A stretch of DNA of 64,000 nucleotides, taken from Lachnospiraceae bacterium. GTDB taxonomy: Bacteria; Bacillota; Clostridia; Lachnospirales; Lachnospiraceae. Position 1 is the stretch's first letter. Each line of letters starts with the position of its first letter. Made by a program: the position numbers and the translations under genes. The stretch covers positions 1 to 64,000 of the forward strand of contig JAFZUW010000005.1 of the NCBI GenBank assembly GCA_017618195.1, written 5' to 3'. Shown here one piece after another: positions 45,150-48,840 of the stretch. The notes below the pieces were generated by a model that saw only the letters and a list, made by a program, of their open reading frames with translations, was not told the DNA's origin and ran no database searches.

Positions 45150-45440
45150 AATTTACAACTTCATATCGTTCAAAGGCTGTGACGAAGACGGTCTCGCGAA
45201 TGCACTTTCAGAGAGTCGGTGGCTGGTGTGAACCGACATTGCGGAACGAATCGACCTATCCCTTCCGAGCTGAAGGTCTGAACTTCGAAAGAAAAGTAGG
45301 AACTTCCGTATTTGCCGCGTCAAGGCATAGGATTTGTTGGAATCCGAAGAGTGGCGTACAGTGTACGCAAGTTGAGTGGTACCGCGGGTGAAAGGCTCGT
45401 CTCAAACAATCGTTTGGGACGGGCATTTTTTATTGTCCGG
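45150..45440 (+). ncRNA. T-box leader riboswitch controlling the acyl-CoA ligase gene
   Basis: Contains the stem I landmark CAGAGAGTCGGTGG with GGTGTGAACCGAC, and the T-box core AGTGGTACCGCGGG (45375-45388), followed by CTCGTC and a terminator (45395-45432). These are hallmark T-box elements, which sense uncharged tRNA. UGGU in the core pairs with a tRNA whose discriminator is A. The specifier region is GGAACGAATCGACC (45243-45256). Reading ATC (Ile, 45250-45252) fits the A discriminator and the metabolic context; TCG (Ser) fits the GAA-NNN-ACC pattern but Ser tRNAs carry G73. Amino-acid identity is therefore uncertain. The exact 5' end is inferred from the promoter. Confidence 0.9.
45395..45432 (+). 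terminator. Regulated terminator inside the T-box leader
   Basis: GCTCGTCTCAAAC (45395-45407) pairs with GTTTGGGACGGGC (45412-45424, with G-U pairs), followed by ATTTTTTATT. It is expected to compete with the antiterminator containing the T-box core. Confidence 0.88.
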
Positions 45441-45524
45441 GCGCGGACGGACCGGAATACCGGACCGGAACCGCAGCCGATCGATTACAGCCTTTCAATA
45501 ATACACCAAAGGAGTAAAAGATTT

Positions 45525-47792
45525 ATGAGCGACAACATGGACCTGAAATTGCAGGAAGTTGCATCACGTATCCGCGAGATGCGTGAGATCGCAGGATTCA
45601 CCGAAGGTGAGATGGCGGAGAAGACCGATGTCAGCACGGAAGAGTACGCAATGTACGAAGCCGGAAAAACCGATATGCCGTTCACCTTTATTCACAAGTG
45701 CGCGCTCGCATTCGGCGTTGAAATGTCCGCGCTTCTTGAAGGACATACGGCCAAACTGACGAGTTACACGGTTACGAGAAAAGGACAGGGACAGATCACT
45801 TCCGAAGAGGAAGGCATCCTGATCAAGAACCTGGCGGCTAATTTCAAGAAGAGACTGGCGGAGCCGTATTGGGTACGCTATGAGTATTCGGCAGAGCAGC
45901 AGAAGAAGCCGATTCATCTTACGAAGCACAGCGGCCAGGAATTCGATATCGTCATGAAGGGCTGCTTGAAGGTTCAGGTCGGCGAGCATGTGGAAATCCT
46001 TCATGAAGGCGACAGCATCTTCTATAACAGTTCGACGCCTCACGGCATGATCGCGATCAACGATCAGGACTGCACGTTTATCGCAGTTGTACTGCCCGGC
46101 GAGGACGTTGCCGAGCAGGAAATCGTCGATACGCTTGTGGAAGGCCGTACCGCGAAGCGCAGCTTCGTCTGCGACAAATTCATCAAAACCGTTGAGGACG
46201 AGAAGGGCCGCCTGAAGTCCATCGATTTCGTAAACGAAGAAAAATTCAACTTCGCATACGATGTGGTTGACGCAATCGCGAAGAAGAATCCCGAGAAGCT
46301 TGCGATGGTTCATCTGGACCGCGATAAGAACGAGCGCCGTTTCACGTTCCTTGACATGAGTAAGAAGAGCGGCCAGTGCGCAAACTACTTTAAGTCCCTC
46401 GGCATTGAGCCCGGCGACCGCGTAATGCTCGTATTGAAGCGTCATTACCAGTTCTGGATATGCATGCTTGCACTGCATAAGCTCGGTGCGATCGCGATTC
46501 CCGCAACGTATCAGCTTCAGGAGCATGACTTTGAGTACCGCTTTAAGTCTGCCGGAGTAAAGGCCATCGTATGTACCGGTGACGGCGATACCGCCAACCA
46601 GGTTGACCTTGCGGCACCGCGCTGTGATACTTTGATCCACAAGATCGTAGTCGGCGCTCCGAGAGAGGGCTGGCGCAATTTCGATGAAGAGTATGTAATG
46701 TACAGCTCTCATTTCGACCGCGTCGCGAACAGCCCGTGCGGTTCGGACCGTTTCATCATGTTCTTCACTTCCGGTACGACCGGATATCCGAAGATTGCAT
46801 GTCATTCCTATAAATACGCCCTCGGTCATTATGTAACCGCGAAGTACTGGCATCAGGTTGATCCCGACGGACTGCACCTGACCATTTCCGATACCGGCTG
46901 GGGTAAGGCACTCTGGGGCAAGCTGTACGGCCAGTGGCTGTGCGAAGCACCCGTATTTGTCTACGACTTTGACCGCTTCCATGCGGAGGACATTCTGCCG
47001 CTGTTCGCGCAGTATCATATCACGACGTTCTGCGCACCGCCCACAATGTACCGCATGCTTATTAAGGAAGATATCAGCAAATACGACCTCAGCTCGATCG
47101 TTCACGCAACGACCGCAGGCGAGGCTCTTAACCCCGAGGTTTACAACGTATTCAAGGAGAAGACCGGACTCCGTATCCACGAAGGTTTCGGTCAGACTGA
47201 GACAACGCTTGTTATCGGTAACCTGTACGGCGAGAAGCGTAAGCTCGGCTCCATGGGTAAGCCTACGCCGCAGTATCATGTAGACATCCTCGATCCTGAC
47301 GGAAAGCCCGTACCGGTCGGCGAAAACGGCGAGATCTGCATCTACACGAATGAAAAGACGCCTTGCGGATTGTTCCGCGGCTACTATAACGATCCCGAGC
47401 GTACGAAGGAAGCATGGCACGACGGAATCTACCACACCGGCGACGTCGCATGGAAGGATGAGGACGGCTTCTACTGGTATGTCGGTCGTATCGATGACGT
47501 TATCAAATCGTCCGGCTACCGTATCGGACCGTTCGAAATCGAAAGTGTTATCATGGAACTTCCGTACGTTCTCGAGTGCGGTGTCAGCGCAGCTCCCGAT
47601 CCGATCCGCGGACAGGTTGTTAAGGCAAGCATCGTTCTGACGAAGGGCACCCAGCCGTCCGAGGAACTCAAGAAAGAGATCCAGGACTACGTAAAGAAGC
47701 ATACGGCACCTTACAAGTATCCTCGTATCGTAGTCTTCATGGACGAACTTCCGAAGACCATCAGCGGAAAGATTCAGAGAAACAAGTTGTAA
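45525..47792 (+). CDS. XRE-cupin-AMP-dependent acyl-CoA ligase fusion
   Basis: 755 residues. An XRE-type helix-turn-helix (about 7-65, VASRIREMREIAGFTEGEMA), a cupin (about 105-190, KHSGQEFDIVMKG, GDSIFYNSSTPHGM), then an acyl-CoA synthetase: P-loop FFTSGTTGYPK (about 412-422), GFGQTETT, TGDVAWKDEDGFYWYVGR (about 637-654), and catalytic Lys in KTISGKIQRNKL. It activates a carboxylic acid to acyl-CoA with ATP; branched-chain or aromatic acids are likely given vor downstream. The regulator-like front end suggests ligand sensing. Start ATG after GGAG. Its expression is governed by the T-box. Confidence 0.9.
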   Translation: MSDNMDLKLQEVASRIREMREIAGFTEGEMAEKTDVSTEEYAMYEAGKTDMPFTFIHKCALAFGVEMSALLEGHTAKLTSYTVTRKGQGQITSEEEGILIKNLAANFKKRLAEPYWVRYEYSAEQQKKPIHLTKHSGQEFDIVMKGCLKVQVGEHVEILHEGDSIFYNSSTPHGMIAINDQDCTFIAVVLPGEDVAEQEIVDTLVEGRTAKRSFVCDKFIKTVEDEKGRLKSIDFVNEEKFNFAYDVVDAIAKKNPEKLAMVHLDRDKNERRFTFLDMSKKSGQCANYFKSLGIEPGDRVMLVLKRHYQFWICMLALHKLGAIAIPATYQLQEHDFEYRFKSAGVKAIVCTGDGDTANQVDLAAPRCDTLIHKIVVGAPREGWRNFDEEYVMYSSHFDRVANSPCGSDRFIMFFTSGTTGYPKIACHSYKYALGHYVTAKYWHQVDPDGLHLTISDTGWGKALWGKLYGQWLCEAPVFVYDFDRFHAEDILPLFAQYHITTFCAPPTMYRMLIKEDISKYDLSSIVHATTAGEALNPEVYNVFKEKTGLRIHEGFGQTETTLVIGNLYGEKRKLGSMGKPTPQYHVDILDPDGKPVPVGENGEICIYTNEKTPCGLFRGYYNDPERTKEAWHDGIYHTGDVAWKDEDGFYWYVGRIDDVIKSSGYRIGPFEIESVIMELPYVLECGVSAAPDPIRGQVVKASIVLTKGTQPSEELKKEIQDYVKKHTAPYKYPRIVVFMDELPKTISGKIQRNKL

Positions 47793-47806
47793 TTAAAGGT
47801 ACACTG

Positions 47807-47963
47807 CCAAACCCGCGTTTTGTCACGATTGCCGGGAGCGCGTGAAAGCTTGCTTTCAACGCCTTCCGCAATCGTGGCAAAACAGGGCGGTGACGACAGT
47901 TACCGCCCGCCCATGAGCAAAAATGGGACCGAAGGGGAGCATTTTTGCGAATGGCGGGTTTGG
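47807..47963 (+). other. Multibranched inverted-repeat element (possible structured RNA or MITE-like repeat)
   Basis: A 157-bp four-helix junction. P1: CCAAACCCGC (47807-47816) with GCGGGTTTGG (47954-47963). P2: 47817-47883, a long hairpin whose outer 16 bp pair fully (one G-U) and which continues through GGGAG/CTTCC and GCGTGAAAGC/GCTTTCAACGC. P3: GGGCGGT (47885-47891) with ACCGCCC (47902-47908). P4: GCAAAAATG (47917-47925) with CATTTTTGC (47940-47948). Joining segments are 0, 1, 8 and 5 nt. No T-run follows any hairpin, so it is not an ordinary terminator. No coding content is supported. No clear target-site duplication flanks P1. Confidence 0.65.
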
Positions 47964-48019
47964 AAGACCTAAAAGAAACAAATGTTGATACTATAGAGGA
48001 CCTGTTCCGGCGGCGCGCC

Positions 48020-48068
48020 CGGGAGCAGGCACAGAGGGGCTTTCCCGCCCCGGTTGTGCCTGCTCCCG
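48020..48068 (+). other. Long hairpin upstream of the ATPase/vor promoter
   Basis: CGGGAGCAGGCACA (48020-48033) pairs perfectly with TGTGCCTGCTCCCG (48055-48068), with an inner GGGGC/GCCCC stem. It lies 57 bp after the multibranched element and 52 bp before the promoter at 48120. Confidence 0.6.
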
Positions 48069-48119
48069 AGGCAGCCGTTGTCAGCTTGCTTCCGTATGGC
48101 TGTTCAGAGACACTTTCTC

Positions 48120-48148
48120 TTGCATTTTCCGGTAGTAAGGGTTATATT
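48120..48148 (+). promoter_or_regulatory. Promoter of the ATPase/vor operon
   Basis: TTGCAT (48120-48125), a 17-bp spacer, then TATATT (48143-48148), 20 bp before the ATPase start codon. The vor genes may therefore be expressed independently of the T-box. Confidence 0.65.
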
Positions 48149-48168
48149 TATTAGAATAGGGTGATACG

Positions 48169-48840
48169 ATGGATTTTAAGCGTTTGGTGCTCTTTGCGGG
48201 GCATTACGGCAGCGGTAAAACGAATATTGCGGTCAATATGGCAATCGACCTCAAAAAAGAGGGGAAGAATGTCGTCATTGCGGATCTCGATATCGTGAAT
48301 CCGTACTACCGGACGAAGGACAGCGAGCAGGAACTTGAGGCGGCGGGAATTCCGCTGATCAGTTCCGAATACGCGAATTCGAACGTCGATGTGCCGGCGC
48401 TTCCGCAGGCCCTTTATTCCCTGGTCGATCAGAAGGATCGTTACGGGATCATGGATATCGGCGGTGACGACCGCGGCGCTCTGGCGCTCGGGAGGTATGC
48501 TCCGGCAATTCTTGAGGAGAACAACTACGAAATGCTCCTCGTCATCAACAAGTATCGTCCGCTGACTCCGGATGCGGCAAGCACTCTGGAGGTCATGCGT
48601 GAGATAGAAATCGCGGGCGGGATTCCGTTCACCGGGATTGTGAACAACTCAAATCTCGGAAGGGAGACGACCGCGGAAGATGTTATCAAAACCCATGCCT
48701 ACGCCATGGAAATGGCTGAGGACACGGGGCTGCCGCTTCGGATGACGACCGTCAGGGACGACATCGCGGAAGAGGTGGCCAAAGTAATTCCGAATGTCGT
48801 ACCGTTACGGTTGCAGAACAAACGGCTTTGGAATGACTGA
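48169..48840 (+). CDS. SIMIBI-class P-loop ATPase linked to the Vor genes
   Basis: 223 residues. Walker A GHYGSGKTN (about 11-19), Walker-B-like IADLDIVNPYYRTKD (about 38-52) and IMDIGGDDRGALALGRYAP (about 95-113). The fold is MinD/ParA/CooC-like, but the deviant ParA-type Lys (KGG) is missing. Relatives insert metal or Fe-S cofactors into oxidoreductases; a maturation role for the Vor complex immediately downstream is plausible but inferred. Cytoplasmic. Own promoter at 48120. Confidence 0.8.
   Translation: MDFKRLVLFAGHYGSGKTNIAVNMAIDLKKEGKNVVIADLDIVNPYYRTKDSEQELEAAGIPLISSEYANSNVDVPALPQALYSLVDQKDRYGIMDIGGDDRGALALGRYAPAILEENNYEMLLVINKYRPLTPDAASTLEVMREIEIAGGIPFTGIVNNSNLGRETTAEDVIKTHAYAMEMAEDTGLPLRMTTVRDDIAEEVAKVIPNVVPLRLQNKRLWND

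Follow-up and report, generated by a model that had tools for sequence, protein, structure and literature searches.

What is the strongly folded stretch of DNA which separates an acyl-CoA ligase gene from an ATPase gene in a genome of a Lachnospiraceae bacterium? The window analysed here (the whole stretch of 64,000 nucleotides) holds an inverted-repeat element for which an earlier note, made from the sequence alone, suggested two identities, a structured RNA or a short non-autonomous repeat with an RNA-like fold. Our analysis supports this description, of which the repeat is the better half, with signs that the fold has been selected. We consider it probable that the element belongs to a family of small, MITE-like structured repeats carried by many gut-dwelling Lachnospiraceae, kin of the Rfam class Clostridiales-1, that are moved by an IS66-type transposase and reside in host messengers as co-transcribed RNA domains; the same explanation, at the same strength, includes that the window element is an old and probably immobile copy of this family.

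The fold and its gene neighbourhood

RNA folding of the + strand places a four-helix junction at 47807-47963, with coordinates exact to the base. The outer stem P1 pairs CCAAACCCGC (47807-47816) with GCGGGTTTGG (47954-47963) over 10 bp and encloses three hairpins, as had been claimed. The first of them, H1 (47817-47883), is the hairpin of 67 nt that was described as pairing almost end to end, and it carries an apical CUUG tetraloop with a G-C closing pair. H2 (GGGCGGTGACGACAGTTACCGCCC) occupies 47885-47908, and H3 (CATGAGCAAAAA...TTTTTGCGAATG), the most conserved part of the element, 47912-47953, with a symmetric GA/GA internal loop formed by 47915-47916 and 47949-47950. The joining segments of 0, 1, 8 and 5 nt given in the earlier note hold if CATGA and GAATG are left unpaired, but the predicted fold pairs CAT with ATG around the GA/GA internal loop, and the joins then become 0, 1, 3 and 0 nt. 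The whole fold reaches 47797-47970 through a short outer stem, in which 47797-47806 (AGGT, ACA, CT and G) folds onto 47964-47970 (A, AG and ACCT as folded); the left side of this stem contains GTACACTG, a possible decayed left end comparable to the GTAACTG of some same-genus copies. Folded with its flanks (47790-47980), the RNA reaches -104.1 kcal/mol (z of -10.5), which none of 200 shuffles equalled, and the complement strand gives a weaker RNA fold (-84.5, z of -7.4).

The gene upstream (45312-47792, + strand) is an open reading frame with matches to HTH, cupin and AMP-binding domains, of the acyl-CoA ligase type, whose stop codon (47790-47792) lies 14 nt ahead of 47807. A T-box leader was found ahead of it at 45170-45407 (101.2 bits); the note had called the ligase T-box-controlled. 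Downstream, on the same strand, a CbiA/ParA-type P-loop ATPase is encoded at 48169-48840, about 200 bp behind the 3' edge of the fold; this gene served to locate the orthologous site in other genomes. An open reading frame of 69 amino acids (47945-48154) overlaps the element and has no Pfam match, which rules out a known coding family and upholds, as far as tested, the view that the element is not coding sequence. A second strong hairpin, GGGAGCAGGCACAG...CTGTGCCTGCTCCC at 48005-48083, follows the element ahead of the ATPase gene and likewise lacks a T-run; its first arm occurs in 3 of 423 loci, all of them copies of the same site.

A very stable structure between a stop codon and the following gene could serve to terminate or attenuate transcription at the end of the ligase unit, ahead of the vor-type genes, and such a role would suit the promoter-like stretch that by eye precedes the ATPase gene both in the window and in one related genome (G009). 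In the window this stretch reads TTGCAT...TATATT and was missed by the sigma-70-type scan: over 47700-48250 we found neither a terminator-like nor a sigma-70-like site (shuffles give 0.7 and 0.5). As had been noted before, the stem is not followed by a T-run, and an ordinary intrinsic terminator was ruled out for the window copy on these grounds. Moreover, the copies of relatives lie between codirectional genes, by eye gyrB-gyrA, purB-guaA and pgk-tpiA, where termination would be costly if these pairs are operons. A terminating or attenuating role thus appears improbable.

Conservation, spread and kinship of the element

The window class was characterized within its genus. From the genus loci 32 full elements were extracted and 27 kept; the five discarded ones were a duplicate and four elements mis-paired within tandems. 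These 27 copies align over their full length, H1-top, H2 and H3 well and the remainder poorly, and folding gives three branches on P1 in 26 of them. Ten of the 25 counted pairs changed on both sides and 96.6% of the cells pair; the covariation score of 0.194 was matched by none of 500 shuffles (mean 0.083) and by no slid control, 14 of the 500 shuffles had at least as many further pair types, and these P-values are optimistic because copies in one genome or at one site are not independent. Compensatory changes beyond both kinds of control are located in H1-top and H2, with four of five pairs changed on both sides in the apical H1 helix and five of nine in H2. Covariation next to a conserved junction, which the earlier note had proposed to look for, is therefore present within the genus. 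H3 is nearly invariant, so that its support comes from conservation and the GA/GA motif rather than from covariation: a near-invariant core, CATGAGCAAAA...TTTTGCGAATG, holds the symmetric GA/GA loop, and in the few variants found elsewhere GAG...CGA is kept, by eye, while the flanking pairs differ. Of 38 H3 sequences obtained, 36 were used for alignment A1; model R1, built from 36 sequences with that of the window among them, matches the window at 47912-47953 with 41 bits. The sequence of P1 varies among loci and its pairing is kept (145 elements, 134 non-redundant, 117 with a P1 of 8 or more); comparing the pairing of own and other P1 arms is biased, as P1 was selected by pairing, and a fairer null gives a median of 11 versus 7. 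The statistics of H1 come from the 112 elements that have it, 70 of which carry the CTTG loop.

The element is widely dispersed. A 16-base form of the core was found in 84 of 250 genomes of the same family, with up to 69 copies each, against 2 of 250 for the reversed control, some of the matches looking like chance. A stricter pattern, CATGAGCAAAAN{8,38}TTTTGCGAATG, occurs in at least 119 stretches of GTDB contigs; among the 80 titles listed, 77 name Lachnospiraceae or a genus that belongs there, two name Eubacterium (E. ramulus among them) and one gives no more than "bacterium". The strict pattern had no match in viral contigs, which ruled out phage cargo. Within the order, model R1 matched at least 8 of 196 genomes, and two of these (f8 and f11) lie outside the family; as no more than a portion of the first-look candidates went on to scoring, the R1 counts are minimum values. 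The window's own genome has two copies, that of the window and one ahead of a guaA-like gene (named by eye), and across the set the neighbour genes, named by eye from their translations, are unrelated. Palindromes arisen by chance and devoid of biological meaning would require no more than G+C-rich DNA able to fold, and have no other support; the z of -10.5, the 84 genomes against 2 for the control and the covariation make this explanation close to negligible.

Several loci carry tandem arrays, in which H3, H2 plus H3 or whole units are repeated (L012 in G008, L024 in G003, L014 in G002, L052 in G014, and L283, L287 and L288 in G377). Their periods are about 70, 81, 117, 144 and 150 bp, and such growth by modules is similar to that of BOX elements.

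The closest known relative is the Rfam class RF01699, Clostridiales-1, for which the source is Weinberg et al. 2010 (PMC2864571). A permissive Rfam scan of the window gave one full-length match to it, at 21.1 bits against a cut-off of 48; this alignment sets H3 against the wrong RF01699 hairpin, and by eye the likeness is to the second. MicroRNA names returned by the Rfam scans were ruled out, their hairpins being below cut-off. Both groups have P1, an H1 with a GCUUGC loop, and the AUGAGCA...UGCGAAU hairpin around a symmetric GA/GA loop; Clostridiales-1 is, like the window class, multi-copy, sometimes tandem and found in the same bacterial family. They differ in the order of the hairpins. In RF01699, P1 and H1 are followed by the AUGAGC hairpin in second place and by the GAUUGCGGGAGUGC..GCAC..GCAAUC hairpin in third, whereas in the window the GGYRAC..GTYRCC hairpin is second and the AUGAGC hairpin third, so that the window departs from the RF01699 succession of P1, H1, AUGAGC and GAUUGCGGGAG hairpin. 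None of 20 loci of the window class reached the RF01699 cut-off, and two of 12 wider-family loci picked by the core pattern did, one of them (L169) with the ends GATAACTATTCAGAGCC...TCTGAATAGTTA. The window element is thus kin of Clostridiales-1 and, by the curated test, no member of it; among wider-family copies there is overlap between the two groups. RF01699 scored over its cut-off in 25 of the 80 genomes searched, 49 of which are in the family; two of the 25 (G076 and G081) are outside it. Together with the R1 matches in f8 and f11, this indicates that the superfamily is not confined to the Lachnospiraceae. We found no paper on the mobility of Clostridiales-1 in the literature searched.

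Mobility and history of the copies

The earlier note had proposed that many copies with target-site duplications would indicate a mobile repeat, and this is what the wider family displays. Its copies have sharp ends, GTAACTATTCAG...CTGAATAGTTAC, outside of which conservation drops to background. When left and right flanks of 72 copies with TTCA-type anchors were compared (the tandem locus L147 enters twice, and some of the rows come from the genus of the window), 11 showed a perfect 8-bp target duplication (0.15 expected) and 6 a duplication at 7 of 8 positions (0.26 expected), and among repeat lengths of 5 to 12 only 8 stands out (z of 8.4). A second, partly overlapping set of 25 copies bounded by terminal inverted repeats gave 10 with at least 7 of 8. 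The family is MITE-like.

A candidate mover was found through these ends. Of six genomes searched, five contain a 15-base form of the end, and the genome GAM79 has 43 exact GTAACTATTCAGARC ends. We took 40 stretches around ends lacking a near partner; GAM79 supplied 25, which are all that it has, and two further genomes the other 15. GAM79 contains two identical elements of 1,817 bp with the family ends on both sides and 8-bp duplications that are perfect by eye, one of them of low complexity. The long open reading frame of these elements matches PF03050 (E of 1.2e-42) and the IS66 transposase model NF033517 (263 bits, cut-off 180). A third pair of ends in this genome (L439) was rejected as a copy of the IS66 element. 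ISDge4, a published IS66 element of the ISBst12 group (PMC12898284), has the ends GTGACTACTCAGCA/GTAACTGCTCAGCA, near-identical to those of the family, and an 8-bp repeat. From the shared ends and the 8-bp duplications, an IS66-type transposase is the likely mover, and the sequences suggest that it probably moves the wider family. The P1 complementarity could itself stem from a transposase needing two like ends.

The wider family resembles MITEs as would be moved by ISBst12-group IS66 elements such as ISDge4 in its GTAAC(T/A)..TCAG ends and 8-bp duplication, and also in that a genome can hold a full-length IS66 element bearing these ends alongside the copies, as seen in GAM79. What sets it apart is its interior, a conserved multi-helix fold, and the window copy no longer has recognisable ends. 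The BOX elements of Streptococcus pneumoniae, likened here by their description in PMC3049150, are also small, dispersed and folded, with tandem middle parts, co-transcribed and thought to be moved in trans; they differ in their hosts and in their proposed mobiliser, ISSpn2 instead of IS66.

Other searches around the mover concerned TnpB and the ends. PF05717 (TnpB) had matches in 6 of 12 carrier genomes, over cut-off in 4, and none in the window's genome; the TnpB gene is absent from single-ORF IS66 elements, which makes it the wrong marker. No GTAA-type inverted pair was seen in the loci of about 3.2 kb around five PF05717 genes, and the 27 matches of the terminal-repeat pattern in viral contigs are presumed to be chance.

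One mechanism may not cover the entire superfamily, since the RF01699-type copies of four genomes (G403, G370, G382 and G377) have ends that differ from those of the wider family and, with 6 to 8 copies each, no convincing duplication; the best of about 1,440 combinations of offset and length reached at most 5.1 (G382), which we did not count as signal. At ten RF01699-type loci of G403 (L269-L278), TTAC stands directly ahead of the left end in eight; one locus (L273) has two copies and most carry a further hairpin behind P1, possibly pointing to another mover. Among the loci of G370 and G382 (L237-L268), the 5' side is truncated or H1 missing in several copies, which retain the 3' part with the AUGAGC hairpin. 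At five further loci (L413, L418, L444, L454 and L456), palindromes of 43-60 bp are made of GTAACTATTCAG ends with little between them; they are probable remnants without the inner hairpins.

For the window copy itself, no target duplication was seen by eye, and it is presumed eroded. Its ends match the GTAAC consensus at 7 of 12 positions on each side; over the 27 genus copies the left end averages 7.3, versus 6.9 when shuffled, the GTAAC left end being kept in only some of them and as a mere trace in the window. As there is no duplication and only this trace, arrival of the window copy by the same IS66 route may be proposed by analogy with its kin.

Orthologous sites give a view of its history. 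The ATPase gene was recovered in 15 of 22 genus genomes: the element lies ahead of it in four (G000, G008, G002 and G009), a short element-free gap in eight (G004, G006, G007, G010, G011, G012, G016 and G017) and a different upstream gene in three (G001, G005 and G019). The guaA-like gene was found in 19 of the 22; ahead of it we read one full copy (G000), seven remnants which keep P1, one with H1 only and three empty sites, the other seven being unclear or in a different neighbourhood. Six gyrA loci, for which the start motif was not found, were left out of the comparison of orthologous sites. With full, remnant and empty states at orthologous sites, the copies seem to be long-lived and to decay as their inner hairpins are lost.

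Strand, orientation and the proposed RNA domain

Two kinds of evidence distinguish the strands. With symmetric scoring, G-U mismatches outnumber A-C mismatches by 117 to 54 in H1, 59 to 37 in P1 and 12 to 7 in the H3 extension; a palindrome that decays neutrally should show both kinds about equally often. The orientation of the copies, counted with the gene-end distances on 93 elements of named loci, follows that of the genes: between codirectional genes, 45 are sense and 12 antisense (an earlier count of 50 to 15 agrees, and earlier gene-end distances, biased by masking, were replaced). In the genus the ratio is 16 to 1, and 16 of the 18 copies with a called sense upstream gene begin P1 4 to 20 nt after its stop codon, both counts being less independent than they appear because of orthologous copies. 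In the wider family, 28 of the 55 sense cases have a stop codon at -5 to +10 nt relative to P1; for antisense copies, gene ends abut the other end of the element, within the same limits, in 7 of 22. The TAA of GTAAC can itself serve as stop codon on either side.

By these signs the fold looks selected on the + strand while single-stranded, with mRNA as the simplest form of it. They fall short of proving the RNA form, because folding as DNA gives the same preference (-58.3 kcal/mol for the + strand versus -50.1 for the other). It is accordingly conceivable, and in our estimation unlikely, that the conserved strand acts as single-stranded DNA during transposition, replication or recombination, with the GA/GA pairs and CNNG-loop hairpins as working parts and the RNA fold as a by-product. 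The stability of tandem G.A pairs and G-CNNG-C loops extends to DNA, and the existence of remnants without inner hairpins would fit such a role. The orientation of the copies speaks for RNA instead, since it tracks transcription of the neighbour genes, in the wider set as in the genus, and no DDE-type IS66 transposase is known to need single-stranded hairpins.

The frequent placement behind stop codons in the genus, where H2, H3 and the junction are also strongly conserved, and the Rfam classification of the relative as a gene-type sRNA could also indicate a sister of Clostridiales-1 that is a genuine noncoding RNA, regulatory or acting in trans, with a cellular role, whose mobility would be incidental. 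For a host RNA, however, one would have to accept a pattern copy number ranging from 0 to 69 across family genomes, orthologous sites which, among related species, may hold a full copy, an eroded one or none, and neighbour genes, named by eye, that are unrelated; we find this reading somewhat less likely still than the one based on single-stranded DNA.

The explanation which we favour, a mobile repeat carrying an RNA domain, may be pictured as follows. A single-ORF IS66-type transposase, acting in trans, would recognise the GTAAC(T/A)(A/G)TTCAG ends and make 8-bp target duplications, insertion often occurring at or right behind a stop codon. The inserted copy would probably be transcribed along with the upstream gene, and the transcript would fold into a self-contained domain of four helices, P1, H1 with CUUG, H2 and H3 with GA/GA; in the window, this domain would form the 3' part of the ligase mRNA. 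Such a fold may let the copy be tolerated in the host mRNA, or may insulate or stabilise it. That RNA is the form under selection is thus what the model proposes.

A broader reading, which we advance tentatively and hold to be possible though short of probable, is that the Lachnospiraceae harbour a large superfamily of transposons, moved by IS66, in which the entire body has been selected as an RNA domain of four helices working in host mRNA, and which land at stop codons, can bring their own stop through the TAA of GTAAC and lie mostly in sense. If true, the Rfam orphan Clostridiales-1 would be a branch of mobile elements and not a host regulator. The analysis as it stands offers an unexplained Rfam RNA a likely origin, a mobile element, together with a candidate mover in the IS66-type transposase. 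It also brings to light a bacterial MITE family in which interior fold, strand and position behind the stop codon all look selected, and raises the testable question whether RNA structure evolves in short transposons as a means of being tolerated, or put to use, within operons. More generally, it warns that multi-copy structured motifs obtained by comparative genomics can be transposons.

Finally, some variants bounded by terminal inverted repeats are without AUGAGCA (L104 at 2239-2382, L107 at 203-367 and L164 at 1556-1730), and these have GAG...CGA symmetric loops in other helices.
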